Source: Verrucomicrobiota bacterium
GTDB taxonomy: Bacteria; Verrucomicrobiota; Verrucomicrobiia; Opitutales; Opitutaceae
Direction: 5' to 3'
Length of the DNA stretch: 64,000 nucleotides
Assembly: GCA_016222805.1 (NCBI GenBank)
Contig: JACRQG010000007.1
Coordinates: 1-64,000 of the forward strand
Part shown: piece by piece, positions 746 through 18,960 of the stretch
Position numbering within the stretch: the first letter of the stretch is position 1
How the letters are laid out: each line of letters opens with the position of its first letter
Made by a program: the position numbers and the translations under genes
The notes under the pieces: model-generated
Database searches by the model: none
Seen by the model: the letters and a program-made list of their open reading frames with translations, nothing else
Told to the model about the DNA's origin: nothing

Positions 746-2014
746 ATGCAACCCTATCCTCCGGGGATCTCCCCCCCTCCTCCTCCGCGGCGCGAGGTGC
801 GGCGAAGACGCCTGCGCCGATGGGGTGGCATCCTGGTGGTTTCGCTGCTTGGGGGCGGTCTCGCGGCGTGGTGGACCTCGTCGCTTTGGACCGCGCGGTA
901 CCTTGCCTGGCGGGGTGAACGCTTCGCCGAGCAGGCGGGCGCGGCTCTTCGGCTGGGGCGGCTGCGGGAGGCCGAAGTGCATCTCAAGAGCGCCCTGGCC
1001 CACGACCCGGCCAGGCGCGACCTGAGGCTGGCGGAGGCCACCCTGGCCTGGCGCCTGGGCCGGCGAACGGAGGCCGCGGCGGCCTGGCGCGCAATCCTGG
1101 AGCGGACCGAGGACGCGGCGCGGGCGCCGCTCGCGCGTTCCTGCGCCCTGCAACTGCTGGCGGGCGGTTGGTATCCGGAACTATGCGACCACGCCGTGCG
1201 GGAAATGGCGCGGGATCCGGGAGAGAGCCTCTGGTTGATGCTGGCGGCGGAGGCGGGGCGCCTGACGGCGGGGCGCGGCGAGACTCCGCCGTCCGACGGG
1301 AACCGGCCGGCGGCGATTCTCCTCCGGGCGTATGTGGCGCAGGGGCGGGCCCAAGCGGCCGGGGTGCGCCGGGAATTGCATGCCCTCGACCATCATATCC
1401 TCACCTACCCGGAGGCGGTGCTGGCGGCCCGCGCCTGGTCGCGGTTGGGGGCGGAGGCCGAGGCGCGGGGCACCTTCCTCCGGCTGAATCGGGCGCTCTT
1501 CCGCGAGGAGTTGGTGGCGCACGAGTTGCTCTTCGCCCCTCCGGAATCCTCCGTGGCGCGGCCGGTGGTGCGGGCACTGTTGTCGTCGGCGCGAAGTCCG
1601 GAGGCGGTCGAAGCTGCGGTCTTGCGGCTGGTCGTGCACGGACTGGGCCAGGCCGAGCGCGGGGCGGCGGAAGACCTCACACGGCGATGCCTGCCGTCAG
1701 CCGGCCGCCTCACGCCCACGACCCTTACCGCCCTCTGGCTCTTTTGCGGGCAGGCTCGCTTCGCCGAAGGGGAACGCCTCTGGCGGCAGCGACTGGAGTC
1801 GGGTGCGGGAGACACCCTGCCGTGCCTGCTCGTCGAGCCGCCGCGGGCGCGGGTGCTGGCCATTCTGATTGGACGGGTGCCCCTTCCCTTCGAACTGGCC
1901 TACGCCGTCCTGGCGGTTTCCGGCCCGGCAGCCGTGCCCACACCGGCAGCTCCGGTGCCGGCCACGAATGACCAAAACCAGCCAATGCGCCCGACTTTAC
2001 TGGGCGCGGGGTAG
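746..2014 (+). CDS. Membrane-anchored TPR-like protein, cassette 1
   Basis: The protein has 422 residues. A basic N-terminus (about residues 17-25) precedes one membrane segment (GILVVSLLGGGLAAWW, about 28-45), and the rest should lie outside the cytoplasmic membrane. After the membrane segment comes a helical-repeat region with TPR-like spacing (RLGRLREAEVHLKSALAHDP, then RLGRRTEAAAAWRAIL). The proteins at 4418 and 8238 share its plan: RxERF just after the membrane helix, a GRLREAE repeat, a late WLFC/RLWRQRL segment and a C-terminal VPLPFELAYAV block. An in-frame codon at 680 is less likely because it adds a Cys/Arg-rich tail. The next gene, 120 bases on, encodes a PEP-CTERM protein. Function is unknown; a role in assembling or displaying its partner is inference. 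Confidence 0.75.
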   Translation: MQPYPPGISPPPPPRREVRRRRLRRWGGILVVSLLGGGLAAWWTSSLWTARYLAWRGERFAEQAGAALRLGRLREAEVHLKSALAHDPARRDLRLAEATLAWRLGRRTEAAAAWRAILERTEDAARAPLARSCALQLLAGGWYPELCDHAVREMARDPGESLWLMLAAEAGRLTAGRGETPPSDGNRPAAILLRAYVAQGRAQAAGVRRELHALDHHILTYPEAVLAARAWSRLGAEAEARGTFLRLNRALFREELVAHELLFAPPESSVARPVVRALLSSARSPEAVEAAVLRLVVHGLGQAERGAAEDLTRRCLPSAGRLTPTTLTALWLFCGQARFAEGERLWRQRLESGAGDTLPCLLVEPPRARVLAILIGRVPLPFELAYAVLAVSGPAAVPTPAAPVPATNDQNQPMRPTLLGAG

Positions 2015-2134
2015 GCCGGATCGTCCTGGGGTGTTTTCCGACTCCCGCGCGTCTTCGCCAAGTCCCGTCCCGGTCTCCCCGCGACGCGGAGCGGCTGGCC
2101 GGACGGAGATCTTCGCGGGGTTTTCGACCCGGGC

Positions 2135-4201
2135 ATGAACATCGAATACATCGGCGGGCCGTGGCCGCGAGGCCACTGGCCCAGGAGGCTGTTCACCGTC
2201 TTCCTGGCTCTAGGGATCATGGCGGGCGCGGTTCGGGCCCAGTTCTATTGGGATACCAGTGGCTCCACGGCGGGTGCTGGCGGCTCCACACCGAGCGGAA
2301 CCTGGAGCACCAGTGCGGCCAATTGGTCGTCGAGCAGCGCGGGAACCGCCGCGACCGCCGCCTGGAGCGGGTCGTCCAACGATGCCGTCTTCGCGGCCGG
2401 GACGGATGCCACCGGCGCCTACACCGTCACCGTGTCCGGGAGTGTGAGTGTCAATGACATCACCTTCGCCGAGGGCACGGTGACGATCGCCGGCAGTACG
2501 CTCACCCTCGCGCGGCCGAGTTCCAGTGATAATCCCACGATCACCGTAAGCGCGGAATCGGCGACCATCTCCGCGGTCCTGGGTTCGACCTTCGCCCTGA
2601 CCAAGGCCGGCTCCGGGGCGCTGGTGCTCAGCGGCAACAACACGTTCTCCGGATCCATGACGGTCAGCCAGGGGGTCCTGAACCTACAGCACAATTCCGC
2701 CCTGGGTACGACGGCGGGCAGCACCACGGTCAGCAGCGGGGCCGCCGTGGAACTCCAGGGTGTCAGTGGGGGCACGGCCATCGTCATCGGGAATGAAGCC
2801 TTGTCGCTTTCGGGCACCGGCGTGAGCGGCGGGGGGGCCCTGCGCAGCGTGGCCGGCAGCAATTCGTGGGCCGGGGCGATTACCCTCGCGGCGAACGCGT
2901 CGATTGTCGCGGAGTTGGACTCCCTGACCCTTTCCGGCAACCTCAATGGCAGCTCCAGCGGGCGCGTCCTGACCTTTGGGGGCGGCGGCAACACGACGGT
3001 GTCGGGGGCGATCGGCGGCAATGTCGGCAACCTCGTGAAGACCGGCTCGGGGACGCTCGCGCTGACGGCCACCAACAGCTACACCGGCACGACCACGATC
3101 AACGCGGGCACCGTGAGCATCAACAGCGACCGCTCCCTTGGGGCCGTGCCCGGGAGCGTGATCAGCAACGAGGTGGTATTGGATGGCGGCGCGCTGGCGG
3201 CCACCGCCAACCTGACCCTCTCCGGCAACCGCGGGATCACCATTGGCGCCGGCGGCGGGGCCCTCGATGTCGCCACCGGCGCCACCCTGACGTATCCGGG
3301 AGTATTGGACGGAAGCGGGAGCCTGACCAAGACCGGTGGAGGGATCCTGAGCCTGACCGGTGGCGCCGCCAACACCCTCAGCGGCCCGACGCAGGTGGCC
3401 AACGGCACCCTCAGTCTCGGCAAGACGGCCTCACTGGACGCCCTGGCGTCGGCCCAAATCTCGGTGGGGGACGGCACCGGGGCGGCCGGATCGGCGGTGC
3501 TGGCCCTGGCGGCAAACAACCAGATTCCGAACGCGGCGCTGGTGACGGTGGCGAGTGACGGAAACTTCAACGTGGGTGCCTTCACCGACACGATCAACCA
3601 GGTCGGGGGGCTGGGACTCATCACCATCGCCAGCGGCGGCACCCTGACGGTGGGCGGCACGAACGGCTCCTCCAGTTTTGGCGGCACCCTTACCGGATTG
3701 GGGACGCTGGAAAAGGCCGGGAGCGGTACGCTCACCTTCACCCAGTCTTTTTCCTTGGCCGGGACCCTGACGCTGTCGGGGGGGACCGTCGCCCTCTCGA
3801 ATGTCGATCTCACGGTTGGCACCCTGCGGATCACCGGCAACTCGATCCTGGACTTCGGCGCGGGAGCCTCGTCGCTGACGGCCACCAACCTGATCATCGA
3901 TCCCGGCGTGATCCTCACCGTCGCGAACTGGACGCACCTGCAGGATTTCTTCCGCGTGACGACCTCGTTCACGCAAAGCGGGGGACCAGCGGCCGCGCGC
4001 GAGGTGTCCGGGGTCGCTCCGCAGAACCAGATCGTATTTTCTGGATACAGCAGCGACGACACGCAGTGGTACAGCGCGGCCAATGGCAATCAACTCGCGC
4101 CGTTCCCGGCCCCGGAGCCGCCGGTGTACGGCCTTGGGATGGCGGGGCTTGCGGCCGGCCTCGTGGCCTGGCGCCGCCGCAGCGGCCGCGGTGCCGGCTA
4201 G
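2135..4201 (+). CDS. PEP-CTERM protein with autotransporter-type beta-strand repeats
   Basis: The protein has 688 residues. A signal peptide (RRLFTVFLALGIMAGAVRA, residues 17-35) is followed by a Ser/Thr/Gly/Ala-rich beta-helix-like body. At least four autotransporter-associated beta-strand repeats are visible near residues 155-185, 300-330, 396-430 and 524-556, each opening with L-x-K-x-GSG-x-L (LVKTGSGTLAL, LTKAGSGALVL). The C-terminus has the three-part sorting signal: APEPPVYG, a hydrophobic helix (LGMAGLAAGLVAW) and a basic tail RRRSGR. In PEP-CTERM systems an exosortase recognises this signal; none is encoded in the window. Despite the repeat name there is no C-terminal outer-membrane barrel. 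It is probably exported and surface-associated. The partner TPR-like gene lies upstream. Confidence 0.9.
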   Translation: MNIEYIGGPWPRGHWPRRLFTVFLALGIMAGAVRAQFYWDTSGSTAGAGGSTPSGTWSTSAANWSSSSAGTAATAAWSGSSNDAVFAAGTDATGAYTVTVSGSVSVNDITFAEGTVTIAGSTLTLARPSSSDNPTITVSAESATISAVLGSTFALTKAGSGALVLSGNNTFSGSMTVSQGVLNLQHNSALGTTAGSTTVSSGAAVELQGVSGGTAIVIGNEALSLSGTGVSGGGALRSVAGSNSWAGAITLAANASIVAELDSLTLSGNLNGSSSGRVLTFGGGGNTTVSGAIGGNVGNLVKTGSGTLALTATNSYTGTTTINAGTVSINSDRSLGAVPGSVISNEVVLDGGALAATANLTLSGNRGITIGAGGGALDVATGATLTYPGVLDGSGSLTKTGGGILSLTGGAANTLSGPTQVANGTLSLGKTASLDALASAQISVGDGTGAAGSAVLALAANNQIPNAALVTVASDGNFNVGAFTDTINQVGGLGLITIASGGTLTVGGTNGSSSFGGTLTGLGTLEKAGSGTLTFTQSFSLAGTLTLSGGTVALSNVDLTVGTLRITGNSILDFGAGASSLTATNLIIDPGVILTVANWTHLQDFFRVTTSFTQSGGPAAAREVSGVAPQNQIVFSGYSSDDTQWYSAANGNQLAPFPAPEPPVYGLGMAGLAAGLVAWRRRSGRGAG

Positions 4202-4326
4202 GTCGCGTTCTGGCGGGCGGGCCCGGGCCGCCACGGGCGGCGCGGCGGTCTGCGTCGGCTCGGAGTCGCCACCGGTCGCGATTCGGGAACTTCCACCTCG
4301 ATGCATAAACAGATAGCATTTCGATT

Positions 4327-4345
4327 ATTAGGGATTCCTATACGT
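4327..4345 (+). promoter_or_regulatory. TAGG-N3-T-N4-TACGTA element, copy 1
   Basis: TTAGGGATTCCTATACGTA ends 72 bases before the ATG at 4418. An equally long element (6843-6861) with the same TAGG and TACGTA ends 75 bases before the ATG at 6937. TAGG...CCTA inside it is an inverted repeat and TACGTA is itself a palindrome. Matching spacing ahead of two PEP-CTERM cassettes suggests a shared regulator site; this is inference. Confidence 0.4.
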
Positions 4346-4417
4346 ACGATCAGGCTGAAGGGATCTTGCTACAGGGGAGAGGTTGATGGTGGCGCGGGGC
4401 CTGGGTTCGATCGAAGG

Positions 4418-5701
4418 ATGCAAATTGGGGGTATTTCCCTAGGTTTCTCTCCCGCGGTGCCACCGGTGCGGCCATCGAGGGCCGCGCTGCGCCGGTTGAC
4501 GGCTGCGACCACCCGTAAAGTCCTGGTGGGGAGCCTTGCCGCAGTTGTCGCCGCAGGCGTGCTTTGGTGGGCACTTCCACAGGGGTGGGAATGGCTGCGG
4601 GGACGGCGCGTCGAGCGATTCCTCGCCGAGGCGATTACCGCCGAAAGGGCGGGGGAAATCCGCCGGGCGGAAATCGCCCTGGAGAGTGCCTTCACGTTGA
4701 GCCGGGGTGAGGTTGCCATCGCCATCCAGCGCGCGGATTTTCTCCTGCGAAACGGGCGGGCCGAGGAGGGGCTGGCTGTCTGGCGGTACCTGCAGACCGG
4801 GAGCCGCGGAGCAATGGCGCGGCCGATGGCGTTGGCGTTTGCCTCACGCCTGATCTCGTCCGGACGGTTTTCGGCCTTGGCGGCGTTGGCGGTGGAACGG
4901 CTCGCCGCCCGCGCTCCGGATGCCGGCATCTGGATGAACCTGGCGGCCGAAGGCGCGCGTCTGGCAGGGCGAACCTGGACGGAGGACGAGCTTTCGGTCC
5001 TGACCGATGCCCGGGTTCGCGGGGTGCTCGCGGCGCATGCCCTCGCCAGCGCTGGTCGTGGGCAGGCGGCCCGGCAGTCGCTGCAAGGAATCGCCGGGAC
5101 CGGTACCGCTTCCCAAGCGTTGGCGCTGCTCCAGGCGCGCACGTGGCTCGCGCTCGGTTCTCCGGAGCAGGCGGGGGTGGTTCTGCGGCGCGTGGGCCAG
5201 GTGCTGCCCGCGGAGGAAATCGTCTGGCACGAAGTGTTGCTTGGCGGCGTCGCCCCGGCGATGGGCACGCGGCTGCTGCTGGAGTCGCTGGAGGACCCGT
5301 TGCCTCCCGGGGTGCTGGAACGCCGAGTTACTGGTTGGATTGTGCACGCCCTTGCCCGGCCGGATCCACGGACTGCGGAGGCCCTGACCCGGCGCTTGCA
5401 GCATGAGGCCCCCCAACTCTCCGCGACCGGGCTGGCCGCGCTGTGGGCGTACTGCGGAGTGGCCGGAGACGGCGACAGCGAGCGCTTCTGGCGCGAGCGT
5501 CTCGGTGCCAAGATTGACCGGACCATTCCCACGCTGCACGCAACGGTGCTCACGGTTCCATTCCTGCGCATCATCGCCGAGCGGGTTCCGTTGCCGATCG
5601 AACTCGTGTGTGGGCTGATGGCGGCAACCCGGCCGGAGCCCGAGGCCAGGGGAGGCGGGGCCGCCCGCGAGGATGCCACCGCTGCGCGGATTTCGACATG
5701 A
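4418..5701 (+). CDS. Membrane-anchored TPR-like protein, cassette 2
   Basis: The protein has 427 residues from the ATG at 4418. It is a paralogue of the proteins at 746 and 8238. A membrane helix (VLVGSLAAVVAAGVLWWAL, about residues 35-53) is followed by RRVERF, a helical-repeat region (AGEIRRAEIALESAFTLS, NGRAEEGLAVWRYLQ) and the family C-terminal block ERVPLPIELVCGLMAA. The stop codon overlaps the start of the PEP-CTERM gene at 5698 in ATGA, so the two are probably translationally coupled. The start is uncertain. A DNA motif shared with a non-coding region at 18924-18960 falls on codons 4-12, so translation may begin at a downstream GTG (4457 or 4466). In-frame codons upstream to 4301 add an unconvincing tail. 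The role is unknown. Confidence 0.75.
   Translation: MQIGGISLGFSPAVPPVRPSRAALRRLTAATTRKVLVGSLAAVVAAGVLWWALPQGWEWLRGRRVERFLAEAITAERAGEIRRAEIALESAFTLSRGEVAIAIQRADFLLRNGRAEEGLAVWRYLQTGSRGAMARPMALAFASRLISSGRFSALAALAVERLAARAPDAGIWMNLAAEGARLAGRTWTEDELSVLTDARVRGVLAAHALASAGRGQAARQSLQGIAGTGTASQALALLQARTWLALGSPEQAGVVLRRVGQVLPAEEIVWHEVLLGGVAPAMGTRLLLESLEDPLPPGVLERRVTGWIVHALARPDPRTAEALTRRLQHEAPQLSATGLAALWAYCGVAGDGDSERFWRERLGAKIDRTIPTLHATVLTVPFLRIIAERVPLPIELVCGLMAATRPEPEARGGGAAREDATAARIST
4429..4452 (+). promoter_or_regulatory. GGGTATTTCCCT element, copy 1
   Basis: GGGTATTTCCCTAGGTTT here matches GGGTATTTCCCTTGGTTT at 18937-18954 at 17 of 18 positions, and both run on into a TCT/CCC-rich stretch. The second copy is clearly outside genes, in front of a NarL-type regulator. 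Here it overlaps the first codons of the TPR-like gene as annotated. A conserved control site is the likeliest reading. Confidence 0.35.
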
Positions 5702-6735
5702 TCCATCGTTACGCCAGGTTTCTGGTTCCTTTGTACTTCGGGGTGGTCTCCTTGTGCGGCCAGACGGCCCTGGTGATGAGTGACGTCACCTCGTCGGCGG
5801 GGACGGGCTTTGCCTCGTTAACCAACACCCAGGCCGGCAAGGGCTTTATCGACTACTACACGGTTTCGCGATGGTCGGACTCGGCGGTCAAGAACCCCGC
5901 CGATGCGGCTTTCAACCTGGTGGGAGGATCGAGCACGGCGAGCACGGCCACGTTTTCGACCAGCCCGATGTTGCAGGTGCAGACGGCGTACATCGGCGGT
6001 ACGAATCCCAGCAATCTGGGTGTGGCCTTCCGCCTTCGGCTCGGTTCGTACGACCTGGCCGCGATCCAGTCCACGGGACTGACAGCCATTGTCGGAGTCG
6101 GGCCGGAAGGAAACTCGGACAAGGCCACCTTCGGGCTGTCGGCTTCGATCACCTCGGATGGCTCGAAGATCACCGGCTTTACCATCAACATCCTCGACGC
6201 GCAGTCCACGGTCGGGGTGAACCAACTGGCGAAGTTTACGACCGGTGGCAGCGGAGGATTCGTCTCGTCCACGGTGTTTGCCACCAACTCCACCGGCGTC
6301 GACACGAGTTTTGTGTCGTATCAGTCCACCGGAAACAACGCGTTTTCCGATCCGGATGAGGGGCAGTCCAACGACGGCTGGCTGACCTTCGGCGTGACCT
6401 TTGCCGCGGTGAACAACGCCGTCTCGTCCTTGTCGCGCACCAATGGCAGCGGCGTGGTGAATCCCTACGACGCGGATACCGCGAAGTGGAACTACATCCC
6501 GGTGGTGGCCAAGGGAACGAATCCGGCGACCTGGAACCCGGTGGATGCGGTGGGATCGACCGGCAACACCTGGGCCTCCGACTTCGTGTACACCAACGGC
6601 AGTCCGACGACTCCTTCCCTGCCTCCGGGGTATCCGGTGCCGGAACCGTCGACCTGGATCATCAGCGGCATGCTGCTCCTTCCGGCCGGCGGCCTCTGGT
6701 GGCGACGCCGGCGCGCGACGCTGTCGGTGCGGTGA
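5698..6735 (+). CDS. PEP-CTERM sorting domain protein, cassette 2
   Basis: The protein has 345 residues. It starts in the ATGA that overlaps the stop of the TPR-like gene. A signal peptide (FLVPLYFGVVSLCGQTALV) is followed by a beta-rich, Ser/Thr/Gly-rich domain with few charged residues. The C-terminus is a textbook PEP-CTERM signal: VPEPSTW, a hydrophobic helix (IISGMLLLPAGGLWW) and basic RRRRA. Its middle part is similar in style to the protein at 6937 (shared VGVAFRLRLG/AGVAFRLLGN and YDADTAKWN/GTDTAVQWN stretches), so the two are probably related. Export followed by exosortase-type processing is known for the tail family. The body has no recognised function. Confidence 0.85.
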   Translation: MIHRYARFLVPLYFGVVSLCGQTALVMSDVTSSAGTGFASLTNTQAGKGFIDYYTVSRWSDSAVKNPADAAFNLVGGSSTASTATFSTSPMLQVQTAYIGGTNPSNLGVAFRLRLGSYDLAAIQSTGLTAIVGVGPEGNSDKATFGLSASITSDGSKITGFTINILDAQSTVGVNQLAKFTTGGSGGFVSSTVFATNSTGVDTSFVSYQSTGNNAFSDPDEGQSNDGWLTFGVTFAAVNNAVSSLSRTNGSGVVNPYDADTAKWNYIPVVAKGTNPATWNPVDAVGSTGNTWASDFVYTNGSPTTPSLPPGYPVPEPSTWIISGMLLLPAGGLWWRRRRATLSVR

Positions 6736-6842
6736 GACTCCCGCAGACGCTGCCGAGCCGGAGCCGCCACGTTCCGACCGGCCGGTGGAGGGCGGGTGGG
6801 TTCCTCGCTGGAACCGAGGCTCTTTGGCAGGGAGAATCCGGG

Positions 6843-6861
6843 CTAGGTGCTTTCCTACGTA
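6843..6861 (+). promoter_or_regulatory. TAGG-N3-T-N4-TACGTA element, copy 2
   Basis: CTAGGTGCTTTCCTACGTA has the same layout as the element at 4327-4345. It lies 75 bases before the ATG at 6937 and downstream of the previous stop at 6735. An upstream GGCAGGGAGAATCC (from 6829) loosely resembles GGCAGGGAAAAAGTATCC in front of the regulator at 14797. Confidence 0.4.
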
Positions 6862-6936
6862 ATGCCCGTGGAAGATTTGCCGGGGTTTGAGAAGAAGTTC
6901 GGTTCCTCGTTCGAACCTCCCGGGCAGGATGGCCCC

Positions 6937-8241
6937 ATGTTGATCCAGTCACGGAAAGGGCCCTCGAAGGGTCGGGTAGCGCAAGGTGCCTGCGCCATCG
7001 AGGAGGGAAAACTCCCAGACGCGGAAAGGGACCGGACTGGCCGGGTGAGTCGGGTATTGCTCGTGCTGGCGATGATTGGCGCCGGCGCAAGCGGAGCCAG
7101 GTCCCAAACGCTGGTAACCCAGGCCACCAGCGGCTTTACCGCGGCCCAGACAACCACCATCACGGCCGTGGATGCCAATGGGAATCCGACCCTTGCCGGC
7201 TACCAGAGCGGGAACATGAATGATGTGAACTCCAGTGGAGGAAACACCTCTGACTCGAACAGTACGTCGAGCTACCTGATGGGGGACGGCGGTGGATCCG
7301 TGGTCAACAACGGCGTGGCCTCGGTCAAGATTGGGACGACCACCTATTCGACCGGTGCTGGTGACACCTACGCGCGGGCGGGCTTTTACATCGACAGCGG
7401 GGACTTCCTCAGCGCAGCGACGACGACGGTATCCGCCGCGAATGCCGGCGTGGCGTTTCGCCTACTCGGCAATCAGCCCGCGAATGGCACAACAGGATAC
7501 TACGCGGTCGGAGTCGACCTGGTGAAGGTCGGCGATGTGGCCGGCGTGTACACCGGCACCAGCAGTACCCTCGGGACCGCCACCGTGGATTTCTTTCTGG
7601 TGGCCGAGGTGACCCCCGCGAGCGGCACGACCCTCGGCACTGCGGCAGGGAAGGTCTACGTGATCGGCACGGACAGCTCCCTGGCAAACTCCAGCACTGC
7701 CACCACGGGATGGAACCCGACGACGTCGACCTGGGTGCAACTCGGCTCTTCCATCTCTGCAGGGGGCAACCTCTCCAACTCCACGGTGGCCGTAACCAAC
7801 GGAGCGACCCTGTTCGTGACGGACGGCGGCTCCACGGTCGATGACGGGAACCAGATCTCCTTCGGCGGCACGTACGCGAACATCAACAGTGCGTTGCGGA
7901 CGATTTACGGCACCGACACGGCGGTGCAGTGGAATACGGGAGACACGGTGCGATTCGCGCCGCTGAGCACTGTGGGTGGCACGGTGGATTTCATGGGCAT
8001 CAACAGCGCCCAGGGTGGCACCGCGGGACTGCCCTTTGCGAGCAACGGCACGGCCGCCATCACGGATGCGTACCTGACCGGCGATAACTTCACGCTCACG
8101 CGGACGAGCATCGATGGTTTCCGCTTCGGCGTGGTGCCCGAACCCTCGACCTGGATGAGTGCGGGGGTCCTCGTGGCGGTCGGTGGAGGGCTGCGGTGGC
8201 GCCGATGGCGCGCCAGCCGGCCGCAGGAGGTGCGTCCGTGA
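6937..8241 (+). CDS. PEP-CTERM sorting domain protein, cassette 3
   Basis: The protein has 434 residues from the ATG at 6937 (GGCAGGA lies just upstream). The signal peptide itself begins near VSRVLLVLAMIGAGASGARS, so a GTG at 7045 is a serious alternative start giving 398 residues. The body is Thr/Ser/Gly-rich and beta-like. The C-terminus has VPEPSTW, a hydrophobic helix (MSAGVLVAVGGGLRW) and a basic RRWRASR tail, which is the PEP-CTERM signal. The stop TGA overlaps the GTG start of the TPR-like gene at 8238. Gene order is thus reversed compared with cassettes 1 and 2 (PEP-CTERM first), but pairing and coupling are kept. Confidence 0.8.
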   Translation: MLIQSRKGPSKGRVAQGACAIEEGKLPDAERDRTGRVSRVLLVLAMIGAGASGARSQTLVTQATSGFTAAQTTTITAVDANGNPTLAGYQSGNMNDVNSSGGNTSDSNSTSSYLMGDGGGSVVNNGVASVKIGTTTYSTGAGDTYARAGFYIDSGDFLSAATTTVSAANAGVAFRLLGNQPANGTTGYYAVGVDLVKVGDVAGVYTGTSSTLGTATVDFFLVAEVTPASGTTLGTAAGKVYVIGTDSSLANSSTATTGWNPTTSTWVQLGSSISAGGNLSNSTVAVTNGATLFVTDGGSTVDDGNQISFGGTYANINSALRTIYGTDTAVQWNTGDTVRFAPLSTVGGTVDFMGINSAQGGTAGLPFASNGTAAITDAYLTGDNFTLTRTSIDGFRFGVVPEPSTWMSAGVLVAVGGGLRWRRWRASRPQEVRP

Positions 8242-9431
8242 ACACCGGCCGAACCTCGCCGCGGTGGGTTGCCTGGGTCGCGGCCGCCACGCTCCTGCTC
8301 GCAGCGTTGTTCTTCGCCGGCCGCGCCGGCTGGAACGGGTGGCGGACCCGGCAGTCCGAGCGGTTCACCGAGTCGGGATATCAGCTCTGGCAGCAGGGTC
8401 GGTTGCGGGAGGCCGAACTGGCGCTGGAGTCCGCGGAGCAGCTGGCGCCCGGGGCGCTCCGGCCCCGGTTGCTGAAGGCCCGGATGTGGCTGGTGACCGG
8501 TCGGCGGGAGGAGGCTTTGGTCGCGTTTCGCGCCCTGCGGGCGGTGGCGGACCCGGTCTGGCGGGGCGCGGTCACCGCCAATCTTCATGATGCGCTGATC
8601 GGCACCGCATGTTGGGAGGAATTGACGGAGTTGGCGCTGACCGAGTTGGCGGGCGGCTCGCCCGCGGGCCTCGAATGGCTCACGGCCGCGCTGGAGGCGG
8701 TGCGGCTGGCGGAGCCCGGCGCGCGGATTGAGGCGGTGTTGGCGCGTGGCCTGCCCCACGTCTCCGGACCGGCACGACTCCTTGTAGAGGCGCAGGGCGC
8801 CCTCGCGGCCGGCCGGGTGGCGCACGCGCGGCAAATCCTGGCCAGACTTCCCGTCCCGTTGTCGCCGGAACTGGGCCGCTTGGCCGCGCGGGTCTGGGGG
8901 CGCGCCGGCGACCGGGCCGAGGCCCGGCTCGCGCTGACCCGCGTGAACCGAACCTTGACGGCGGACGAGCAGGCGCTGGCGGCACTGGTGACCGCCGAGG
9001 ACGATCCGGCAGCGGCGGTGGCGGCCGTGCGGCGATTGCTGCAACGGGCGGCAGGTGGTGCCGCGGAGGAGAACCTGCTGGCCGCCGGGCTTGGACTCGC
9101 GCTGGCCCAGCCGGAACCGCGGGTGGCCGCGGCCTTTGGCGGCGGCTTGGATCGCTGGGGCGATGGGATGCTGCCCAGCCTGGCGACCGGAGTCTGGTTG
9201 CTGCAGGAGCTTTCCGGCCAGGAGCCGTTGGCGGAGAAATGGCGGGAGCACCTGCAACAGCGCCTGGGTTGCGCCGCCCTGCCGCGCGGCTTCCGGTCGC
9301 CGACGACCAATGCTTTCCGTCTGCTGGTGGATTCCGTGCCGCTCCGGCGCGATCTGCTCTACGGTTTACTTGCGGCGGTCCCGCCGGCCCGGATCTCTCC
9401 GGTCCCGATCTCGCGGGAGCGGAGGACCTGA
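8238..9431 (+). CDS. Membrane-anchored TPR-like protein, cassette 3
   Basis: The protein has 397 residues. I chose the GTG at 8238 because AGGAGGT lies 8 bases upstream and the start overlaps the preceding stop in GTGA. One membrane segment (WVAAATLLLAALFFAGRAGW, about residues 12-32) is followed by RQSERF, TPR-like helices (QQGRLREAELALESAEQLAP, TGRREEALVAFRAL) and a C-terminal block (VDSVPLRRDLLYGLLAAV). These match the paralogues at 746 and 4418. Coupling to a PEP-CTERM gene for the third time argues that the two products act together. The soluble part should lie outside the cytoplasmic membrane. No catalytic motif is visible. Confidence 0.8.
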   Translation: MNTGRTSPRWVAWVAAATLLLAALFFAGRAGWNGWRTRQSERFTESGYQLWQQGRLREAELALESAEQLAPGALRPRLLKARMWLVTGRREEALVAFRALRAVADPVWRGAVTANLHDALIGTACWEELTELALTELAGGSPAGLEWLTAALEAVRLAEPGARIEAVLARGLPHVSGPARLLVEAQGALAAGRVAHARQILARLPVPLSPELGRLAARVWGRAGDRAEARLALTRVNRTLTADEQALAALVTAEDDPAAAVAAVRRLLQRAAGGAAEENLLAAGLGLALAQPEPRVAAAFGGGLDRWGDGMLPSLATGVWLLQELSGQEPLAEKWREHLQQRLGCAALPRGFRSPTTNAFRLLVDSVPLRRDLLYGLLAAVPPARISPVPISRERRT

Positions 9432-9578: not shown

Positions 9579-11870
9579 TCACGCCGGGGTGGATCGAGTG
9601 CCCGGCCCGGGCCCTGACCCTCCATTACCGGGAGAAAGGGCGGCTGCGACGCCCCGCAGCAGGCTCTCGCTGGTAAACGGTTTTACAATGGTCGCGGCGA
9701 GGTTCAGGCCGGTGAGCGGCTCTTCCGGCGAAGTTCCGATTCGTCCGCTCACCAGGACCACCGGGGTCTCCGGCACCAGCGGGCGGAGGGCGTGGATGAA
9801 CTCGATCCCGTCCATCCCCGGCATCTGCCGGTCGGTGATGACCAGGTCGAGTCGTTCACCGATTTCCGCGGCGCGGCACAGTCCATCGATCCCATCCGCG
9901 GCGAGATGGACCGTGAAATGGTGGGTGGTGAGCACCGATTCAGCGGCTTCGCGGATGAGGGGTTCGTCGTCCACAAAGAGCACGACGCGACCCCGGCCGT
10001 CGATTTTGGCGGACGGCGCGACGGGAACTTCCCCGGCCGCGGCGGCGGTGGGGATGGCCGGCAGGTAGAGACTGAATTCCGTGCCCCGGTTGGGTTCGGA
10101 ATAGAAAGACACGAACCCACCGTGCGATCGCGTGATCCGGGCCACGGCGGCCAATCCGAGGCCGGGCCGGCCGAGACTCGCCTTGGTCGTGAAGAACGGC
10201 TCGAAGATCTTGCCTTGGAGACCGGCGGGGATCCCGCCACCCGAGTCGAACACCGAGGCGACGATGAACTCACCCGGATGGGCGCCCGGGACGGTGCGGG
10301 CGAAGGCGGTATCGACGGTCTGCCGGCGCACACTCAGACGCAGCGTCCCCCCGGTGGGCAGGGCGTCGCGGGCGTTCATGCACAGGTTGAAGAGTGCCTG
10401 TTGCAGGTGCGCCCGGCGTCCCACGGCGGTGGAAGGACCGGAGAGCGGAACCCGGACGATCTGAATCTGCTTCGGGAGGGTCAGGCGGAGGGTGCGCTCG
10501 ATGTCGGCGAGCAGCGTGTTGATCTCCAGCGGTTCGGAAGTGCCGGGATTGCCTTCGGTAAAGGCCATCAACTGTTGCAGGATTTCGGAAGTGAGCCGGG
10601 CGCCCGACTCGATGGCGAAGAGCGGGTCGCGGCCGGGAACCGGGCTCCGGCGCAGCGCTTCCACCCCGAGGAGAATTGGGGTGAGCGCGTTCCGCATCTC
10701 CAGGACGATGCTGCCGGCCAGGGTGCCGAGTGCGTCGAAGCGCTGGTACTGTTCCAGGCGCATCTCGGTCAACTTTTCTCCCGTCCGGTCCACGAAGGCG
10801 CCCACGAAGGTGGTCGGAGATTCGCGAACCGCGGAACCGAAGACCCAGCGGGCGCTGCCGTCAGGGAGGCGGAGACGCAGGCCGCCGGAGAAGGGCCGCC
10901 CTTCCCGGATCAGCGCCCGCCACGCTTCCCGGCAAGCCCGCCGGTCGGCGGAATCGAAGATCCGCAGCCACCGGCGGTTCCGAATCGCCGTGGCCTCGAT
11001 CTGCGTGATCCGGCGGCCCTCGTCGTTGACGAAGACACAGTGACCGTTGTGGTCCACCCGGAGAATCGCCACCGGCACGGTCCGGGCCAGGAGGTCGTAA
11101 CGACGGTTTTCGGCTTCGAGTTCGGTGAGTCTCCGCCGGTCCATCTCCTCGCGTTGACGGCCCAGTTCCTGCAGGGTGGAAATAGTGTGGCGCGACGCCA
11201 GGCGATGCAGGTAGGTGAGCAACAGGCCCCCGCCCACCAGCCAGCACAGCGCGCACGCAAGCGCACTGCTCACGGCAATCCGCTCGTTCCACTTCGCGAC
11301 GTCGCGATCCAGCCCGAGCACGTAGCGGCCTGCTGGCGCCGGCAGCACAGCGAACGCCGAGTACCACGTGCCGAACTCGTCGGTCTCGGGGCCCTCCCAC
11401 GAGGGTTCACCCGTGCGCAGCACGGTCCGAAGGCCCGGGGAAAGCCGGGGATCGCGGTAGTTGCGGTATTCATCCCCGGGTTTCGATTCCTCCTTGCTTC
11501 CGGGTTCCGCCGAGTCGGCCACGAAGACAACCCGGTCGACGGCCTCCTCCCAGTGGAAGATGTAGAGAAAGCGATCATCGGGGTCGACGACGGCGACCCG
11601 GCGCAGGCGCGCCTTGAGCCGGGCGTAGTCGTTGGCAGTGACTTCGGTGGTTTGTCCGCGCAGCTGGCGGAGATCCGCGGCCTCGAAGGTCGCGGCCATG
11701 CTCCGCACGCGTCGCAGGAGTTCCTCGATCCCCTGCCGGTGCGTCGATAGTCCCGTGAGCACGCCTGCGAGAATGCCGCCGGCTCCGATGAGGGCGACCG
11801 CCACGAGGGAACACGGGGCGCGGAGCGACGGAGCGCCGTGCCGGAGAAAGAGACGGGGACACGCGGGCAT
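9579..11870 (-). CDS. Membrane hybrid histidine kinase without the phospho-histidine
   Basis: The protein has 763 residues. Membrane helices at about 20-41 and 199-220 enclose an extracytoplasmic sensor region. A PAS domain (about 255-365), a dimerisation helix region (375-440), an ATPase domain (485-605) and a receiver (628-745) follow. The ATPase motifs are intact: N-box near Asn495/Asn499, FDSGGG at 541-546, FEPFFTTK and GRPGLGL. The receiver has DDE at 634-636, Asp680 (VITDRQMPGMDG) and Lys730. The H-box reads LAGSIVLEMRN where the usual form is LAGGIAHDFNN, so residue 390 is Leu instead of His. It may act as a scaffold or phosphatase, or signal through another kinase. It lies 9 bases after the hybrid kinase at 13832, probably in one operon. 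Confidence 0.9.
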   Translation of the reverse strand: MPACPRLFLRHGAPSLRAPCSLVAVALIGAGGILAGVLTGLSTHRQGIEELLRRVRSMAATFEAADLRQLRGQTTEVTANDYARLKARLRRVAVVDPDDRFLYIFHWEEAVDRVVFVADSAEPGSKEESKPGDEYRNYRDPRLSPGLRTVLRTGEPSWEGPETDEFGTWYSAFAVLPAPAGRYVLGLDRDVAKWNERIAVSSALACALCWLVGGGLLLTYLHRLASRHTISTLQELGRQREEMDRRRLTELEAENRRYDLLARTVPVAILRVDHNGHCVFVNDEGRRITQIEATAIRNRRWLRIFDSADRRACREAWRALIREGRPFSGGLRLRLPDGSARWVFGSAVRESPTTFVGAFVDRTGEKLTEMRLEQYQRFDALGTLAGSIVLEMRNALTPILLGVEALRRSPVPGRDPLFAIESGARLTSEILQQLMAFTEGNPGTSEPLEINTLLADIERTLRLTLPKQIQIVRVPLSGPSTAVGRRAHLQQALFNLCMNARDALPTGGTLRLSVRRQTVDTAFARTVPGAHPGEFIVASVFDSGGGIPAGLQGKIFEPFFTTKASLGRPGLGLAAVARITRSHGGFVSFYSEPNRGTEFSLYLPAIPTAAAAGEVPVAPSAKIDGRGRVVLFVDDEPLIREAAESVLTTHHFTVHLAADGIDGLCRAAEIGERLDLVITDRQMPGMDGIEFIHALRPLVPETPVVLVSGRIGTSPEEPLTGLNLAATIVKPFTSESLLRGVAAALSPGNGGSGPGPGTRSTPA

Positions 11871-11879
11871 CGGTCGAGC

Positions 11880-13832
11880 TCAAGCCGGTGCCGGAGTGGT
11901 CAAGGAATTGGCGAGGGCCTGGTGCAGCCGTTCCGCCAGGCTCGCCTGGTTGAACGGCTTGGCGAGATAGTGAGTGACCCCGAGTTCAGTGAGGAGGGCA
12001 CGTTCGTCGTCCGCGATCCGGCCACTCATCACGATGATGGGAATGTCCGGTGACAAGCGGCGCAGGGCGCGGGTCAGCGTGATGCCGTTCAGGTTCGGCA
12101 TGTGCAGATCGGTCATGACGAGACCGATCTCGTCGCGCACCTTGGAAGCGTGGGTCAGCGCGCGGGCGCCATCCTCGACTGTGATGACCTGGAAACCGAG
12201 GCTCTCCAGGGCGGACTTGACGACTTCCCGCACAAAGGCCTCGTCGTCGACAATCAGGGCGAGCTTGCGGGCCGGTGCCAGCGGGAGAGGCACGGGTGGC
12301 GGAGGTCGGGTAACGGGCACCGCTTCCCCGAGGATCGGCAGGTAGATCGAGAAGCGCGTGCCGCGTCCGACCTCGGAGTAGAGTTTGAGAAAGCCCCGGT
12401 GACCCTTGACGATGCCATGGACGGCGGACAAACCGAGCCCCGTGCCCTTGTCCGGTCCCTTGGTGGTGAAGAACGGATCAAAGATGCGGTCGCGGATCTC
12501 CGGTGGGATGCCGGTGCCGGTGTCGGTGACATTGAAGCGGACGTACGTTCCAGGCCTGGCCTCGGTGAGCGTCGCGGCATAGGCCGCATCGACGTCAACA
12601 TACTCGGCGGTGACGGTGAGCTGGCCGCCCTTGGGCATCGCGTCCCGGGCGTTCAGGGTCAGGTTGAGCAGGACTCGCAGCAGATGAACGTCGTCGCCGC
12701 TAATCGAGGGGAGCTCGGCACCCGATCCGATTTCGACCTGGATGTTCTTGGGAAAGGTGTTGGCGATGATCCGTCCCAGCTCGCCCAGGAGGGTCTGGGG
12801 CGCGAGGGGCTTGAGGCGGAGTTCCGTCCGCTTGGCGAACATCAACATCTGCGTGACCAGCCCGGCGGCCCGTTCGGCGCTGGCCTGCATGCCATCGATT
12901 AGCCGGAGCTGGGCCGGGGAGGCGGAGGGGCGCAACAAGTCGAGCCCGAGAATGATCGGGGCGAGAGTGTTGTTGAGATCGTGGGCCACTCCGCCCGCGA
13001 GCACCCCCATGCTTTCGAGCCGTTGGGCGCCCGCGACCTTGGCCTCGGCCTGCTTCTGTTCGCTGATGTCGCGGAGGAGCAGGAACTCGAACTCCTGGCC
13101 TTCGAAGCGAAGCCCGCGGACGACGAGTTCCGCGATGAACTCGCGGCCGGAGACCGACCGCACGGGGGTCTCGAATCGTTGCGGGGCGCTTTCACTCGGG
13201 CCGTCATCGCCCAGTGGTTGCCGCTGCCATGGCAGCCGTCCACCGGGCATGAAGGAGGAAATCGCCGGCGTGTCCGCTCTTGAGATGTCCAGCAGATCTT
13301 CGAGGTGCTGGTTGCACCGGATGATCCGGCCGGTGGAGTCGATCCAGCCGACGCCGATGGGAGCGTGTTCGACGGAAAAGTCGGAAAAGTAGGCGCGGGT
13401 GGCGCCTTCGCGCAGTTTCAACTCCAGGTCGAGGTAGCGGGCGCGGAGTTCCTGGGAGACGGGGGAGGGCGGGGCCGGGCGCCGGAAGACGCCGCGGGTC
13501 AACACGGGCTGACCGTTCTCGTAGACGACGGAAATCCGGCCTTCGAGTTCAACGGAACCACCCGACTGGTTGCGAAAGTGCAGGTTCTGGAGGCCGACGT
13601 CCTCGCCCGCTCGCAGCCGCGCGAAGATCGCCGCGACCTTGGCCGCCGACGAGGGATGGATGAGATCGAACACCTTGAGGCCCACGACGGGCGTCTCCGT
13701 GAAGTCCAGGGCCGCGCGCAGAGCCTGGTTGACGTACCGGATCGTGCCATCGAGGTCGACGCAGGTCACCAAGTCCCCGGAGGGGGCAAAGAGTGACTCC
13801 GGGGCGGCGGGAAGAACTCGGGCAGTATCCAT
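11880..13832 (-). CDS. Cytosolic PAS-PAS hybrid histidine kinase
   Basis: The protein has 650 residues from the ATG at 13832; an in-frame upstream codon at 13964 would add 44 unconvincing residues. No membrane helix is present. Two PAS-like domains (about 18-115 and 145-258) precede the H-box [12 protein letters not shown] with His284, the ATPase domain (Asn390/Asn394, TDTGTGIP at 436-443, [16 protein letters not shown]) and a C-terminal receiver (DDE at 529-531, Asp575, Lys625). Proteins of this type autophosphorylate and pass phosphate to their own receiver and often onward through a relay. It is first in a two-gene minus-strand unit with the His-less kinase and divergent from the NarL regulator at 13979. 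It may supply phosphate for the His-less partner; this is inference. Confidence 0.9.
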
Positions 13833-13933
13833 GGAGGGCAGAAGTTCGCGGTTCGCAGGGACCGAGTTGACCGTCGGGCGGAGAACGAGGCGAACTTCCG
13901 GGATTGGCGACTTCTGGCGGGTGGAGGGGCGCC

Positions 13934-13948
13934 GGGAAAAAGCTTTCC
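13934..13948. promoter_or_regulatory. GGGAAAAAG element before NarL regulator 1
   Basis: GGGAAAAAGCTTTCC contains GGAAA/TTTCC arms around 4 bases, in the gap between divergent genes starting at 13832 and 13979. It ends 30 bases before the ATG at 13979. The 9-base core GGGAAAAAG recurs at 14747 before the next regulator. Confidence 0.3.
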
Positions 13949-13978
13949 ACGCAGGTGGTCCCAACTACCCTGCGCGCA

Positions 13979-14719
13979 ATGAATAGGACTCGCGGCACCC
14001 GGACTGCGGCCCGCGGACCCGTGCCGCCCTGCCGGGTATGGATCGTGGAGGACCACATCTCGGTGCGGCAGTTGCTGGAGACGTTCGTGGCGTATCTGCC
14101 CGGGTTTGTCGTCACCGGGGTCAGCGAGGAAGACGGACCGGCGCTCGCGGCCGCCCGGCGTCACGAGGTGGATATCGTCATCCTCGATTTGATGATCCCC
14201 GGGGACGGGGGGATGAACACCCTGCAACGCCTGATGCAGCTACCCCAGCCGCCCCGGGTGGTGATCTATTCGGCCACGGTGACCGTGCATTCGTTGAAGC
14301 TGGCGATGGCCCACGGTGCCTACGGCTATGTTGACAAGTCCGATTCGATTGAGGACTTGCGCACGGCGCTGCAGCGGGTGCAGGCCGGGGGAGTTCACTT
14401 CAGCCAGCGGGCGAGCCAGTTGCTGACGACGCTGCTGGCTCCGGTTTCCCGCGAGAACAACGAGCAGGAGCGGCTCGAACTTCGGGTGCTGGAATTGCTG
14501 GCCCGAGGGGCCACGATCAAGGAAGCGGCGCACGAATTGAAAGTCTCCGCGCAGCGGGTGTATCGCATCCGCCAGTTGGTGATGGAGCGGGCGCATGCCC
14601 GGAACGCACAGGACTTGATTCGCTACGCGATCGAAGTGGGCCTGGTGGGCGCGTATCGGGCGGAAACCTCCTCCTGGCCGCCGCCGGGAGATTCGTCGAA
14701 GTCGGTTGGCGGTACGTAG
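13979..14719 (+). CDS. NarL/FixJ-type response regulator 1
   Basis: The protein has 246 residues. The N-terminal receiver has VEDH (residues 23-26), phospho-acceptor Asp70 (VILDLMIPG) and Lys120 (YVDKSD). The C-terminal LuxR-type helix-turn-helix is at about 165-225 (ARGATIKEAAHELKVSAQRV, then YRIRQL). Such proteins bind DNA after phosphorylation at the aspartate. I chose the ATG at 13979 because residues upstream of it are unrelated to the family. It is divergent from the hybrid kinases, and no kinase is fused to it, so these neighbours are its likely phosphate donors. It shares its layout with the regulators at 14797 and 19125. Confidence 0.92.
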   Translation: MNRTRGTRTAARGPVPPCRVWIVEDHISVRQLLETFVAYLPGFVVTGVSEEDGPALAAARRHEVDIVILDLMIPGDGGMNTLQRLMQLPQPPRVVIYSATVTVHSLKLAMAHGAYGYVDKSDSIEDLRTALQRVQAGGVHFSQRASQLLTTLLAPVSRENNEQERLELRVLELLARGATIKEAAHELKVSAQRVYRIRQLVMERAHARNAQDLIRYAIEVGLVGAYRAETSSWPPPGDSSKSVGGT

Positions 14720-14746
14720 TTTCGCCCCGCGCGATTCCCGGCGGCA

Positions 14747-14760
14747 GGGAAAAAGTATCC
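14747..14760 (+). promoter_or_regulatory. GGGAAAAAG element before NarL regulator 2
   Basis: GGGAAAAAGTATCC ends 36 bases before the ATG at 14797. It shares GGGAAAAAG and a TCC end with the site at 13934. It lies in the 77-base gap after regulator 1, which also holds TACGTA at 14713-14718. A common regulator site is inference. Confidence 0.3.
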
Positions 14761-14796
14761 GTGCGTTTTGCCCGTGGGGTGAGTTTTTTTCCCCGC

Positions 14797-15501
14797 ATGA
14801 CGGCCAACCGCTCTCCTTCGGACGCCACCCAGGTCCACCGCATCCGCCTTTTCCTCGTGGAGGACCAGACGCTGTTTGCCTCGTTGCTGGTCGAGATTCT
14901 GTCCGGTCATCCCCGGTTTGAAGTCGTCGGCCTGGCCGCCACGGGAGCCGAGGCCCGGGAGCGCCTCCGGGTGGTGACGCCGGATATCGTGCTGGTCGAC
15001 CTGGTGCTGCCGGACATGAGCGGATTGGAGTTGATCGCCGAACTGATGGCGGCGAAGCCCGCGTTCAAGGTGGTGGTGTGCTCGGCGGCGGCGCATGACA
15101 ATGCCATCACGATGGCGTTTTCCCTGGGGGTGCACGGCTTCGTGGAGAAGACGACCGGCATTCCGGAGCTCATCGAGGTGCTGGAGCGGACCGGCGATGG
15201 CGTGTATGCGTTCTCGCCGCGGGTCAGCGACGTGCTGCGCCGCAGCCTGCGGGAGGGAGGCCGACAGCAGAACCTGCTGCCGGGTGATCTCGCAGTGCTG
15301 CGCCGGCTGGCGCAGCTGCAGGGCGTGCGGGAGATCGCCGCCGAGACGGGTTTGTCCGTGTCGGGGGTCTACAAGGTCCGGCAACGCATCGCCCGGCGAA
15401 CCGGGGCGCGGACGAAACGGGAACTGATCGACCTGGCCGTCCGGCTGGGGCTGGTGCGGGAACTCTCCGGCGGAGTCGGACCGGAAGGGGGCGCCGAGTG
15501 A
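14797..15501 (+). CDS. NarL/FixJ-type response regulator 2
   Basis: The protein has 234 residues. The receiver has VEDQ (21-24), Asp68 (LVDLVLPDMSG) and Lys118 (FVEKTT). The C-terminal helix-turn-helix spans about 160-220 (QGVREIAAETGLSVSGVYKV). The ATG at 14797 was preferred to GTG 14761 because the extra residues have no family counterpart. The stop overlaps the GTG of the sensor kinase at 15498 in GTGA. It therefore starts a tightly coupled set: regulator, kinase, receiver-kinase. The likely role is a DNA-binding output of that kinase pair; its target genes are unknown. Confidence 0.92.
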   Translation: MTANRSPSDATQVHRIRLFLVEDQTLFASLLVEILSGHPRFEVVGLAATGAEARERLRVVTPDIVLVDLVLPDMSGLELIAELMAAKPAFKVVVCSAAAHDNAITMAFSLGVHGFVEKTTGIPELIEVLERTGDGVYAFSPRVSDVLRRSLREGGRQQNLLPGDLAVLRRLAQLQGVREIAAETGLSVSGVYKVRQRIARRTGARTKRELIDLAVRLGLVRELSGGVGPEGGAE

Positions 15502-18229: not shown

Positions 18230-18354
18230 CAGACGGCAGGGGCGAGGTTCCTGCGAAAGGGAGGGTGGCGGCAGCGCGGCGGCACAAGCCCCCGGCCCAG
18301 GGGACTACCGCCGCGTCCCGTTGGCAGCGAATCGCAGCAGGAACGGGGGAATGA
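18226..18354 (+). CDS. Possible 42-residue overlapping reading frame
   Basis: An ATG at 18226 overlaps the stop of the receiver-kinase in ATGA and opens 42 codons. The product is Arg/Ala-rich with no recognised motif (MTDGRGEVPAKGRVAAARRH at its start). It would be translated by coupling. In such GC-rich DNA a short open frame is not proof of a gene; the overlap and the similar case at 20593 are the only support. The rest of the gap to 18462 has an AGGAGGT at 18355 followed by a GTG at 18365, which opens only a short frame into the next gene. Confidence 0.2.
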   Translation: MTDGRGEVPAKGRVAAARRHKPPAQGTTAASRWQRIAAGTGE

Positions 18355-18461
18355 GGAGGTCGGGGTGAGTGCGGTTCGGGAGGATGGGTCGAGGGTTGAA
18401 ATCGGTCTGACGACGCGGCGCGTGCTGGCGGCCGTGATTCTCGCTGCCGTCGACCGAAGCG

Positions 18462-18860
18462 ATGGGTGGATCGGGCCTCGTGTTGATCGCGGAGGACCAT
18501 GCTCCGAACGCAGAGATCCTCGCTGATTTCTGCGCTCTCGAACGGCTGCGAACCAAGGTGGCCGGCAACGGACTGGAGGCGGTGGAAATGGCCCGCCAGT
18601 ATGCTCCCCAGTTGGTTTTGATGGACTGGCGCATGCCGGTGCTCGAGGGTCCCGCAGCCATCCGGCAGCTCAAGGCGGACCCGCGGACCCGCCGCCTCCC
18701 GGTGGTGGCGCTCACGGCCTATGCCCAGCCGCGCGATCAATCCCGGATGGTCGAAGTCGGGGCGGCGGGATTCCTGACCAAACCGGTGAACTTCGATCGT
18801 CGGCACGCCGTCTTGGTGGAGCTGGGGCTTTGTGCCGGGCGCGGCGATCACCGGCCATGA
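18462..18860 (+). CDS. Single-domain receiver protein (CheY-like)
   Basis: The protein has 132 residues, the size of one receiver. It shows AEDH (10-13), the phospho-acceptor Asp55 in LMDWRMP, Thr85 in ALTAYA and Lys107 in LTKPV. There is no output domain, so it should act by protein-protein contact or as a phosphate shuttle or sink in the relay. The sequence style (DWRMPxxxG, ALTAxA) is that of receivers found in hybrid kinases. The ATG at 18462 is the first usable start after an in-frame stop at 18435-18437; the ribosome site is weak. It stands between the two kinase modules. Confidence 0.85.
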   Translation: MGGSGLVLIAEDHAPNAEILADFCALERLRTKVAGNGLEAVEMARQYAPQLVLMDWRMPVLEGPAAIRQLKADPRTRRLPVVALTAYAQPRDQSRMVEVGAAGFLTKPVNFDRRHAVLVELGLCAGRGDHRP

Positions 18861-18923
18861 ACCGCACCACGGGATCCGTCCTCGCCGCCCCCGCTGGAAG
18901 CGCGGACGGGTTTCTCGTCCGGT

Positions 18924-18960
18924 GGGAAATATCGATGGGTATTTCCCTTGGTTTTCTTTT
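18924..18960. promoter_or_regulatory. GGGAAATA-N8-TATTTCCC operator-like site, GGGTATTTCCCT copy 2
   Basis: Perfect 8-base arms GGGAAATA (18924-18931) and TATTTCCC (18940-18947) flank an 8-base spacer. The right half continues CTTGGTTTTC and matches the element at 4429 at 17 of 18 positions. A smaller stem, CGGACG/CGTCCG, lies just upstream at 18903-18921. The site is in the 264-base non-coding gap before the NarL regulator at 19125. A binding site for a dimeric regulator is the likeliest reading. Confidence 0.45.

Follow-up and report, generated by a model that had tools for sequence, protein, structure and literature searches.

The subject of this analysis is a 64,000-nucleotide stretch (hereafter the window), positions 1 to 64,000 of contig JACRQG010000007.1 of a Verrucomicrobiota bacterium of the family Opitutaceae (assembly GCA_016222805.1), in which three genes for tetratricopeptide repeat (TPR)-like membrane proteins each adjoin one gene for a PEP-CTERM protein. 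By sequence comparison the three TPR-like proteins are homologous over most of their length to an ~500-residue protein that is encoded directly upstream of an exosortase. The reading that we prefer, and whose prospects we judge to be even, is that they are short members of a family of inner-membrane-anchored periplasmic TPR adaptors serving exosortase/PEP-CTERM sorting, which would hold particular cargo proteins and present them to the exosortase. The genes of the three cassettes are present as a preliminary description of the sequence had set out and, with their signals and overlaps, are as follows.

746..2014, + strand: TPR-like membrane protein 1 (P0001, 422 amino acids), first hydrophobic stretch at about residues 29-47, TPR-like domain after it
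2135..4201, + strand: PEP-CTERM protein 1 (P0002, 688 amino acids), with PATR beta-strand repeats
4106..4180, + strand: PEP-CTERM signal in P0002 (residues 658-682), profile score below cut-off
4418..5701, + strand: TPR-like membrane protein 2 (P0003, 427 amino acids), long first helix at residues 21-52 (model)
5698..5701, + strand: ATGA, stop of TPR-like gene 2 overlapping start of PEP-CTERM gene 2 (direct reading)
5698..6735, + strand: PEP-CTERM protein 2 (P0004, 345 amino acids), TIGR02595 above cut-off, local likeness to the cargo of related cassettes
6634..6711, + strand: PEP-CTERM signal in P0004 (residues 313-338)
7045..8241, + strand: PEP-CTERM protein 3 (P0005), GTG start at 7045, longer alternative start at 6937
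8134..8205, + strand: PEP-CTERM signal in P0005 (residues 400-423), 16.3 bits, below cut-off
8238..8241, + strand: GTGA, start of TPR-like gene 3 overlapping stop of PEP-CTERM gene 3 (direct reading)
8238..9431, + strand: TPR-like membrane protein 3 (P0006, 397 amino acids), membrane helix at about residues 10-28

The two 4-base overlaps are exact in the sequence, as described previously; in cassette 1 the TPR-like and PEP-CTERM genes are 120 bases apart and do not overlap. Because all six genes run head to tail on one strand, the opposite gene order ascribed to cassettes 2 and 3 is one of two ways of pairing the middle genes. The start of P0005 at GTG 7045 gives, by reading, a signal-peptide-like N terminus.

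Pairwise BLASTP alignment of the three TPR-like proteins gives 33% identity over 402 columns (E 6e-39), 30% over 366 (7e-17) and 27% over 367 (1e-15), and an ERF motif, a G.(L/I)R.AE motif and a C-terminal VPL block are common to all three. Since this identity is accompanied by conserved blocks at either end of the domain that follows the membrane helix, P0001, P0003 and P0006 are true paralogues and not merely a set of TPR proteins, and the earlier expectation that they align beyond generic TPR similarity is borne out. The shared plan proposed for them requires some amendment. The GRLREAE 'repeat' falls within a weak TPR match, and the scores with the Pfam model TPR_19 (20.1, 18.7 and 22.7 bits) lie below the gathering cut-off of 25; the single helix is clear in only two of the three, because a simple hydropathy scan of P0001 gives a second hydrophobic stretch at residues 370-388.

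The link to an exosortase comes from the same genome. A search of it with a profile of the three proteins returned the proteins themselves and two weak matches, on contig 43 (4.5e-6) and contig 36 (6.9e-4). The contig 43 member, of ~503 amino acids, is encoded directly upstream of, and with a 4-base overlap with, an exosortase gene (TIGR04178, 50.9 bits, above the cut-off of 23); it carries a Cys-rich addition at its N terminus (CPC..SDSG..C..RFRRVCPLL..C..VRPFW), followed by a membrane helix and a domain of the kind seen in the window proteins, with a C-terminal LPLPxE..YAL block. Comparison of the window group with the long, exosortase-linked group using hhalign gave a probability of 98.7% over 346 columns (E 1.7e-16), and the likeness takes in both the TPR domain and the C-terminal LPLPxE block. 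Four family genes were found in this genome, the one on contig 43 being exosortase-linked and the other three cargo-linked. A direct search for related loci with the three window proteins returned nothing; whole-genome profile searches and a wider-alignment scan did give matches.

With a family profile (E up to 1e-30), 109 places were located in 91 of 150 genomes of the same bacterial family, and all of their gene neighbourhoods were examined (91 genes first, then 17, plus the fragment L110), with the names trpB, fabV, pseudopilin and Wza in the gene lists assigned by eye. The search and adjacency count suggested in the preliminary description thus took in Opitutaceae-type genomes, and their outcome is largely positive. 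An exosortase gene lies directly downstream on the same strand in 55 of the 109 places (51 among the first 91 genes and four later), and an exact 4-base overlap with it is possible in 45 of the 51 tested. The 55 include L267, where the family frame is broken, L269, where the exosortase frame opens ~245 bases on, L121, L162 and L169, which are cut by a contig end, and L151, in which family and exosortase sequences lie in one frame. The last arrangement recurs in L274, and both were rejected as evidence for fusion, as they resemble what a frameshift or deletion would leave behind in a draft assembly; L275, where a fragment of the family gene runs up to the end of a PATR/PEP-CTERM gene, was rejected likewise and also looks like a remnant. 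L274 and L275 are counted apart, as the two truncated remnants.

A PEP-CTERM or PATR/PEP-CTERM gene is directly adjacent in 27 of the 109 places, and six others have a PATR gene at a distance of 1.9-3.4 kb. Two exosortase-linked genes (L126 and L130) also have a PEP-CTERM neighbour. The PATR genes at L131, L132 and L261 are cut by a contig end, and at L017, L163, L165 and L271 the large frame downstream was recognized by its PATR-like sequence and not by its tail. Among family genes lacking an exosortase, 27 of 54 abut a PEP-CTERM-type gene, as against 32 of 685 background genes (Fisher p 1.7e-18); when the strict detector is applied to both sides for the first 91 genes the figures are 18 of 40 and 32 of 685 (p 2.0e-12), both p-values being too small because the genes share descent. 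The background rate, taken from the 91 loci, in which 12 of 697 other genes are PEP-CTERM-like, is itself high because genes beside the family's own cargo are included. Some further arrangements were noted. L050, L056, L154 and L168 have fabV-like and thioredoxin-like neighbours, as does the exosortase-linked L014, with a frame of 72-95 amino acids at the exosortase position; at L100 an exosortase gene lies 3.3 kb away on the opposite strand.

The family can be divided by context into three classes. Class I genes have the exosortase downstream. Class II genes encode more divergent TPR proteins and, in 14 of 14 cases, immediately follow a PEP-CTERM-type gene of ~300 amino acids. Four of these cases were included on inspection of the sequence (L092, L097 and L099, missed by the rule, and L104, beyond the 350-base limit because of a broken family frame); in three of the 14 the P-E-P of the tail reads P-E-A (L097), P-E-F (L101) or P-E-L (L102). 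Class III genes stand beside a large PATR/PEP-CTERM gene, of 727-2145 amino acids where complete. At five loci (L017, L157, L163, L164 and L165) an opposite-strand frame of 551-899 amino acids lies between the TPR gene and the large PATR gene, and the TPR proteins of these loci group on a single branch of the tree. The window resembles classes II and III together, with PATR cargo in cassette 1 and smaller cargo in cassettes 2 and 3.

In a tree of 94 rows the three window proteins form one group (support 98). In a more careful tree of 61 rows, in which class I was thinned to 17 of its 51 rows, they fall on one branch (support 100/99) together with L257 and the 14 proteins of class II; 18 later-examined places of the 109 are in neither tree. 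All 18 genes on that branch abut a PEP-CTERM-type gene, and none has an exosortase directly downstream. The proposal that the TPR-like proteins are dedicated membrane partners of PEP-CTERM proteins is, therefore, upheld by gene context on this branch, and across the family it is joined by the more frequent link to the exosortase itself. The alternative assignment of the window proteins as exosortase-linked paralogues was dropped once the tree had placed them with the cargo-linked branch. L257, which was picked up by a sequence search of the phylum and not by its gene context, comes from a single-contig genome of another genus; it is of the short type (385 amino acids), lacks the Cys-rich stretch and begins 37 bases after a PEP-CTERM gene. 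It is, in our view, the best out-of-sample test of cargo pairing, though its TPR protein is very divergent.

The cargo assignments in the window differ in strength. P0004 passes the curated cut-off of TIGR02595 (21.2 bits versus 16) and fails that of PF07589 (16.0 versus 20.7); P0002 and P0005 fall below the latter (18.0 and 16.3 bits versus 20.7) and are absent from the TIGR02595 matches. On reading, the tails of P0002 and P0005 have the full plan, comprising P-E-P, a hydrophobic stretch, an Arg cluster and the C-terminal end, and they were filed as PEP-CTERM-like because this plan is complete though their curated scores fall short. A rule-based PEP-CTERM detector of our own making marked exactly P0002, P0004 and P0005 among the gene calls of the window. 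PATR autotransporter-type repeats are present in P0002 (8.7e-24), and a Pfam profile scan showed none in P0004 or P0005. The structure model of P0004 has a predicted local distance difference test (pLDDT) score of 43. A motif like D.WLTFA.SF....A precedes the PEP-CTERM tail both in class II cargo (A4) and in P0004 (window 5698-6735), and, judged from sequence, could possibly be a recognition element. When the PEP-CTERM matches of the whole genome are considered, 23 of the 36 listed are above the cut-off, with P0005 below it and P0002 absent from the same list, and only P0004 among the 23 adjoins a family gene. It follows that the cassettes serve a minority of the cargo and that a general role for them is unlikely. 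In the neighbourhoods read of the genome's two other exosortases, the detector marked no PEP-CTERM gene.

An AlphaFold2 model of P0003, made with 41 relatives, has a pLDDT of 87, a predicted template-modelling score of 0.79, 22 helices and no strands; a long first helix (residues 21-52) contains the membrane span and is followed by 21 helices. As modelled, then, P0003 consists of helices throughout, with a TPR-like fold that follows an N-terminal membrane helix. Consistent with this, the family profile matches TPR proteins of known structure, the best being an engineered TPR protein (5.9e-21), mainly at profile positions 139-209. A Foldseek search with the P0003 model gave LbcA as the sole PDB chain at E <0.001 (9.6e-4), followed by assorted TPR and pentatricopeptide repeat solenoids. 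LbcA-CtpA is reported to degrade cell-wall hydrolases (PMC8764530), and it may be asked whether the window proteins similarly act in quality control, passing PEP-CTERM cargo that is unsorted or in excess to a protease, or tuning exosortase activity, rather than in export. The likeness of fold is, however, weak, with a template-modelling score of 0.32, and no other protease gene was noticed recurring beside the family in the gene lists, which were not searched for proteases specifically; we consider a role in quality control improbable.

Mean net charge is higher before the membrane helix than after it in the three window proteins and in classes I, II and III, which suggests that the helix is oriented N-in/C-out. 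With this orientation the TPR domain would be on the same side of the membrane as PEP-CTERM cargo awaiting the exosortase in the model of PMC1569441. Gene context supports the partnership with cargo, and homology, gene linkage and fold class were established above; topology, binding and hand-over in the following scheme are inferred. With its TPR domain in the periplasm, each protein would bind its own PEP-CTERM protein while the C-terminal helix of the latter is still in the inner membrane, keep it competent and present it to the exosortase. Class I members, encoded with an exosortase, would be the general subunit of the enzyme, and members of classes II and III, encoded with cargo, would be receptors for that one cargo. 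The exosortase link favours the role of an adaptor or cargo receptor; as for the roles suggested earlier (chaperone, anchor or length control), nothing was found pointing to length control.

Several observations weigh against this scheme. Neither an exosortase nor a cargo partner is found at 19 of the 109 places, of which L122 and L260 have <350 bases of contig downstream and L270 and L110 are fragments. Hydropathy gives exactly one helix in two of the three window proteins, in 36 of 51 class I proteins and in only seven of 14 class II proteins, and in five class IIIb proteins the charge rule is reversed. No Cys precedes the membrane helix in any window TPR-like protein, where the long members mostly have 5-6, so that the window proteins, without the Cys-rich N-terminal module, may not contact the exosortase as the long members might. 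The superposition with LbcA has an rmsd (root-mean-square deviation) of 11 Å, and is such as any TPR solenoid would give. The cargo bodies, moreover, are at most weakly alike: that of P0004 matches class II cargo over 24 columns (probability 55%, E 1.2e-4; 4e-11 with the tail included), that of P0005 does so weakly (11%, E 0.0027), and for that of P0002 no relation to class II cargo was found. As a profile of the class II cargo bodies matched nothing in the window's own genome, we make no claim that the cargo bodies all descend from one ancestor. A BLAST search with the L257 TPR protein at E 1e-3 matched four long members but none of the window or class II proteins, and the inner order of the 18-member branch is unsure because of long branches (2.64 for L257, the longest, 1.82 for L103 and 1.72 for L102). 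Finally, 10 of the 14 class II pairs lie in one shared context, beside a trpB-like gene (by eye), such that this neighbourhood is partly inherited.

The last point, together with the tandem arrangement of the three pairs in the window, would also be expected if a PEP-CTERM/TPR cassette had simply been duplicated and inherited as a block, adjacency then reflecting descent and shared regulation without physical partnership. The pairing is, however, kept across about five contexts (by eye), comprising the trpB-like one (10 pairs), a pseudopilin-like cluster (three), L102, L257 and the window, and other branches pair with different cargo, i.e. large PATR/PEP-CTERM proteins, or with the exosortase itself. 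At L257, furthermore, the cargo is conserved (~50% identical to several class II cargos) while the TPR protein has strongly diverged. Inheritance as a block without partnership is, on this evidence, unlikely, if somewhat less so than a role in quality control. Separately, the TPR/PEP-CTERM pairs, or relatives, at L097, L101 and L103 (also L059 and L077) adjoin type IV pilin-like or pseudopilin-like genes.

The adaptor family proposed here appears to be strong in one bacterial family only and is apparently undescribed. With the long profile a strong member (E <1e-100) was found in 13 of 15 sampled genomes of the bacterial family, the best value in the remaining 162 of 177 genomes of the order was only 9.9e-10, and among 288 genomes of the phylum none outside the bacterial family was better than 2.6e-13; these figures refer to the best first-look candidates scored per genome (five in the phylum search, eight in the order search and ten in the family search). 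Among the 150 genomes the window profile at full strength found short-type proteins in the window's own genome only. The names attached to 80 related loci mostly read Opitutaceae, Opitutae or Opitutus; they include Geminisphaera and Cephaloticoccus, and a single one is Akkermansia muciniphila. Six long members tested against Pfam had TPR models as their best matches, one long member had no match in NCBIfam at E up to 0.1, and no paper describing this TPR family turned up in a search of open-licence literature.

Several of the weaker relatives elsewhere in the order (L057-L083), of ~550 amino acids, adjoin polysaccharide-export-like genes, including outer-membrane barrel-, Wza-like and Wzz-like ones, as does L257 (by eye, among the matches listed). 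PEP-CTERM systems are tied to exopolysaccharide (PMC1569441), and the family might belong to envelope polysaccharide assembly, with PEP-CTERM cargo and exosortase adjacent because both are tied to exopolysaccharide. Against this, in the gene lists read the strong members adjoin an exosortase or cargo and polysaccharide genes are no regular neighbour, and the weaker relatives match mainly the membrane helix and the first TPR units; such a scaffold role has, in our estimate, little likelihood. Of the weaker order relatives, L082 adjoins an exosortase gene, and L066 and L077 adjoin a PEP-CTERM gene.

As for the surroundings of the cassettes in the window, a dense run of genes resembling hybrid sensor kinases and response regulators (by eye, from gene calls) lies directly 3' of cassette 3 (9579-21854). 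At 1-620 a minus-strand frame with an exported-protein-like start, divergent from cassette 1, runs off the contig end.

A TPR family tied to the exosortase or to individual cargos is a concrete candidate for the step in which exosortase cargo is recognized, held and handed over. We tentatively suggest that exosortase sorting in this bacterial family could be modular, with a core exosortase having its own TPR subunit and interchangeable cargo receptors, each paired with a cargo gene. The receptor modules would have multiplied, to three in this genome, and the Cys-rich module would have been dropped at least in the window lineage and in L257. If so, this would, to our knowledge and within the literature searched, represent the first layer of cargo-specific receptors described for exosortases. 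The family occurs in organisms that, from record titles free of the mark MAG, look to be cultivated, e.g. Geminisphaera colitermitum TAV2 and Cephaloticoccus primus CAG34, and a family profile would let annotators link unnamed TPR proteins to the PEP-CTERM system.

Among known systems, the EpsI/exosortase C-terminal associated domain (TIGR02914) is similar in being an accessory part that goes with an exosortase; it differs in that the EpsI-like part sits inside the exosortase (15.4-23.8 bits versus a cut-off of 42.8 within the three family-linked exosortases tested), whereas the TPR protein is an additional component. In the LPXTG/sortase system, no membrane TPR adaptor with a gene for each cargo is known to us. 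The exosortase/PEP-CTERM system has been proposed as an analogue of the LPXTG/sortase system (PMC1569441). LbcA (PA4667), the best structural match, is likewise a helical solenoid of TPR type and acts together with an envelope protease, CtpA, which it activates as a partner (PMC8764530, PMC11021448); by contrast with the window proteins it is an outer-membrane lipoprotein (PMC8764530), serves a different protease, superposes weakly and has no known tie to PEP-CTERM proteins. The nearest known kind is PrsT (TIGR02917), the TPR lipoprotein of XrtA/PEP-CTERM sorting (PMC1569441), which resembles the window family in being a TPR protein with ties to PEP-CTERM and exosortase. In Aquincola the prsT gene is found downstream of pepA, a PEP-CTERM gene, and floc formation requires it (PMC9850573). 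PrsT differs in being a lipoprotein whose profile follows PrsK/PrsR and a sigma-54 site, while the window proteins have a membrane helix with no Cys ahead of it and hence no lipoprotein signal. With TIGR02917 (cut-off 312.2 bits) P0001 scores 15.8 and P0003 and P0006 are absent at E up to 1, and three family-linked exosortases, one from the window's own genome, score 66.8-80.5 bits with TIGR03109 versus a cut-off of 208 and are thus not XrtA by this cut-off. Thus, although they are not PrsT by profile, lipoprotein or XrtA tests, the window proteins may work in the manner of a PrsT-type accessory.

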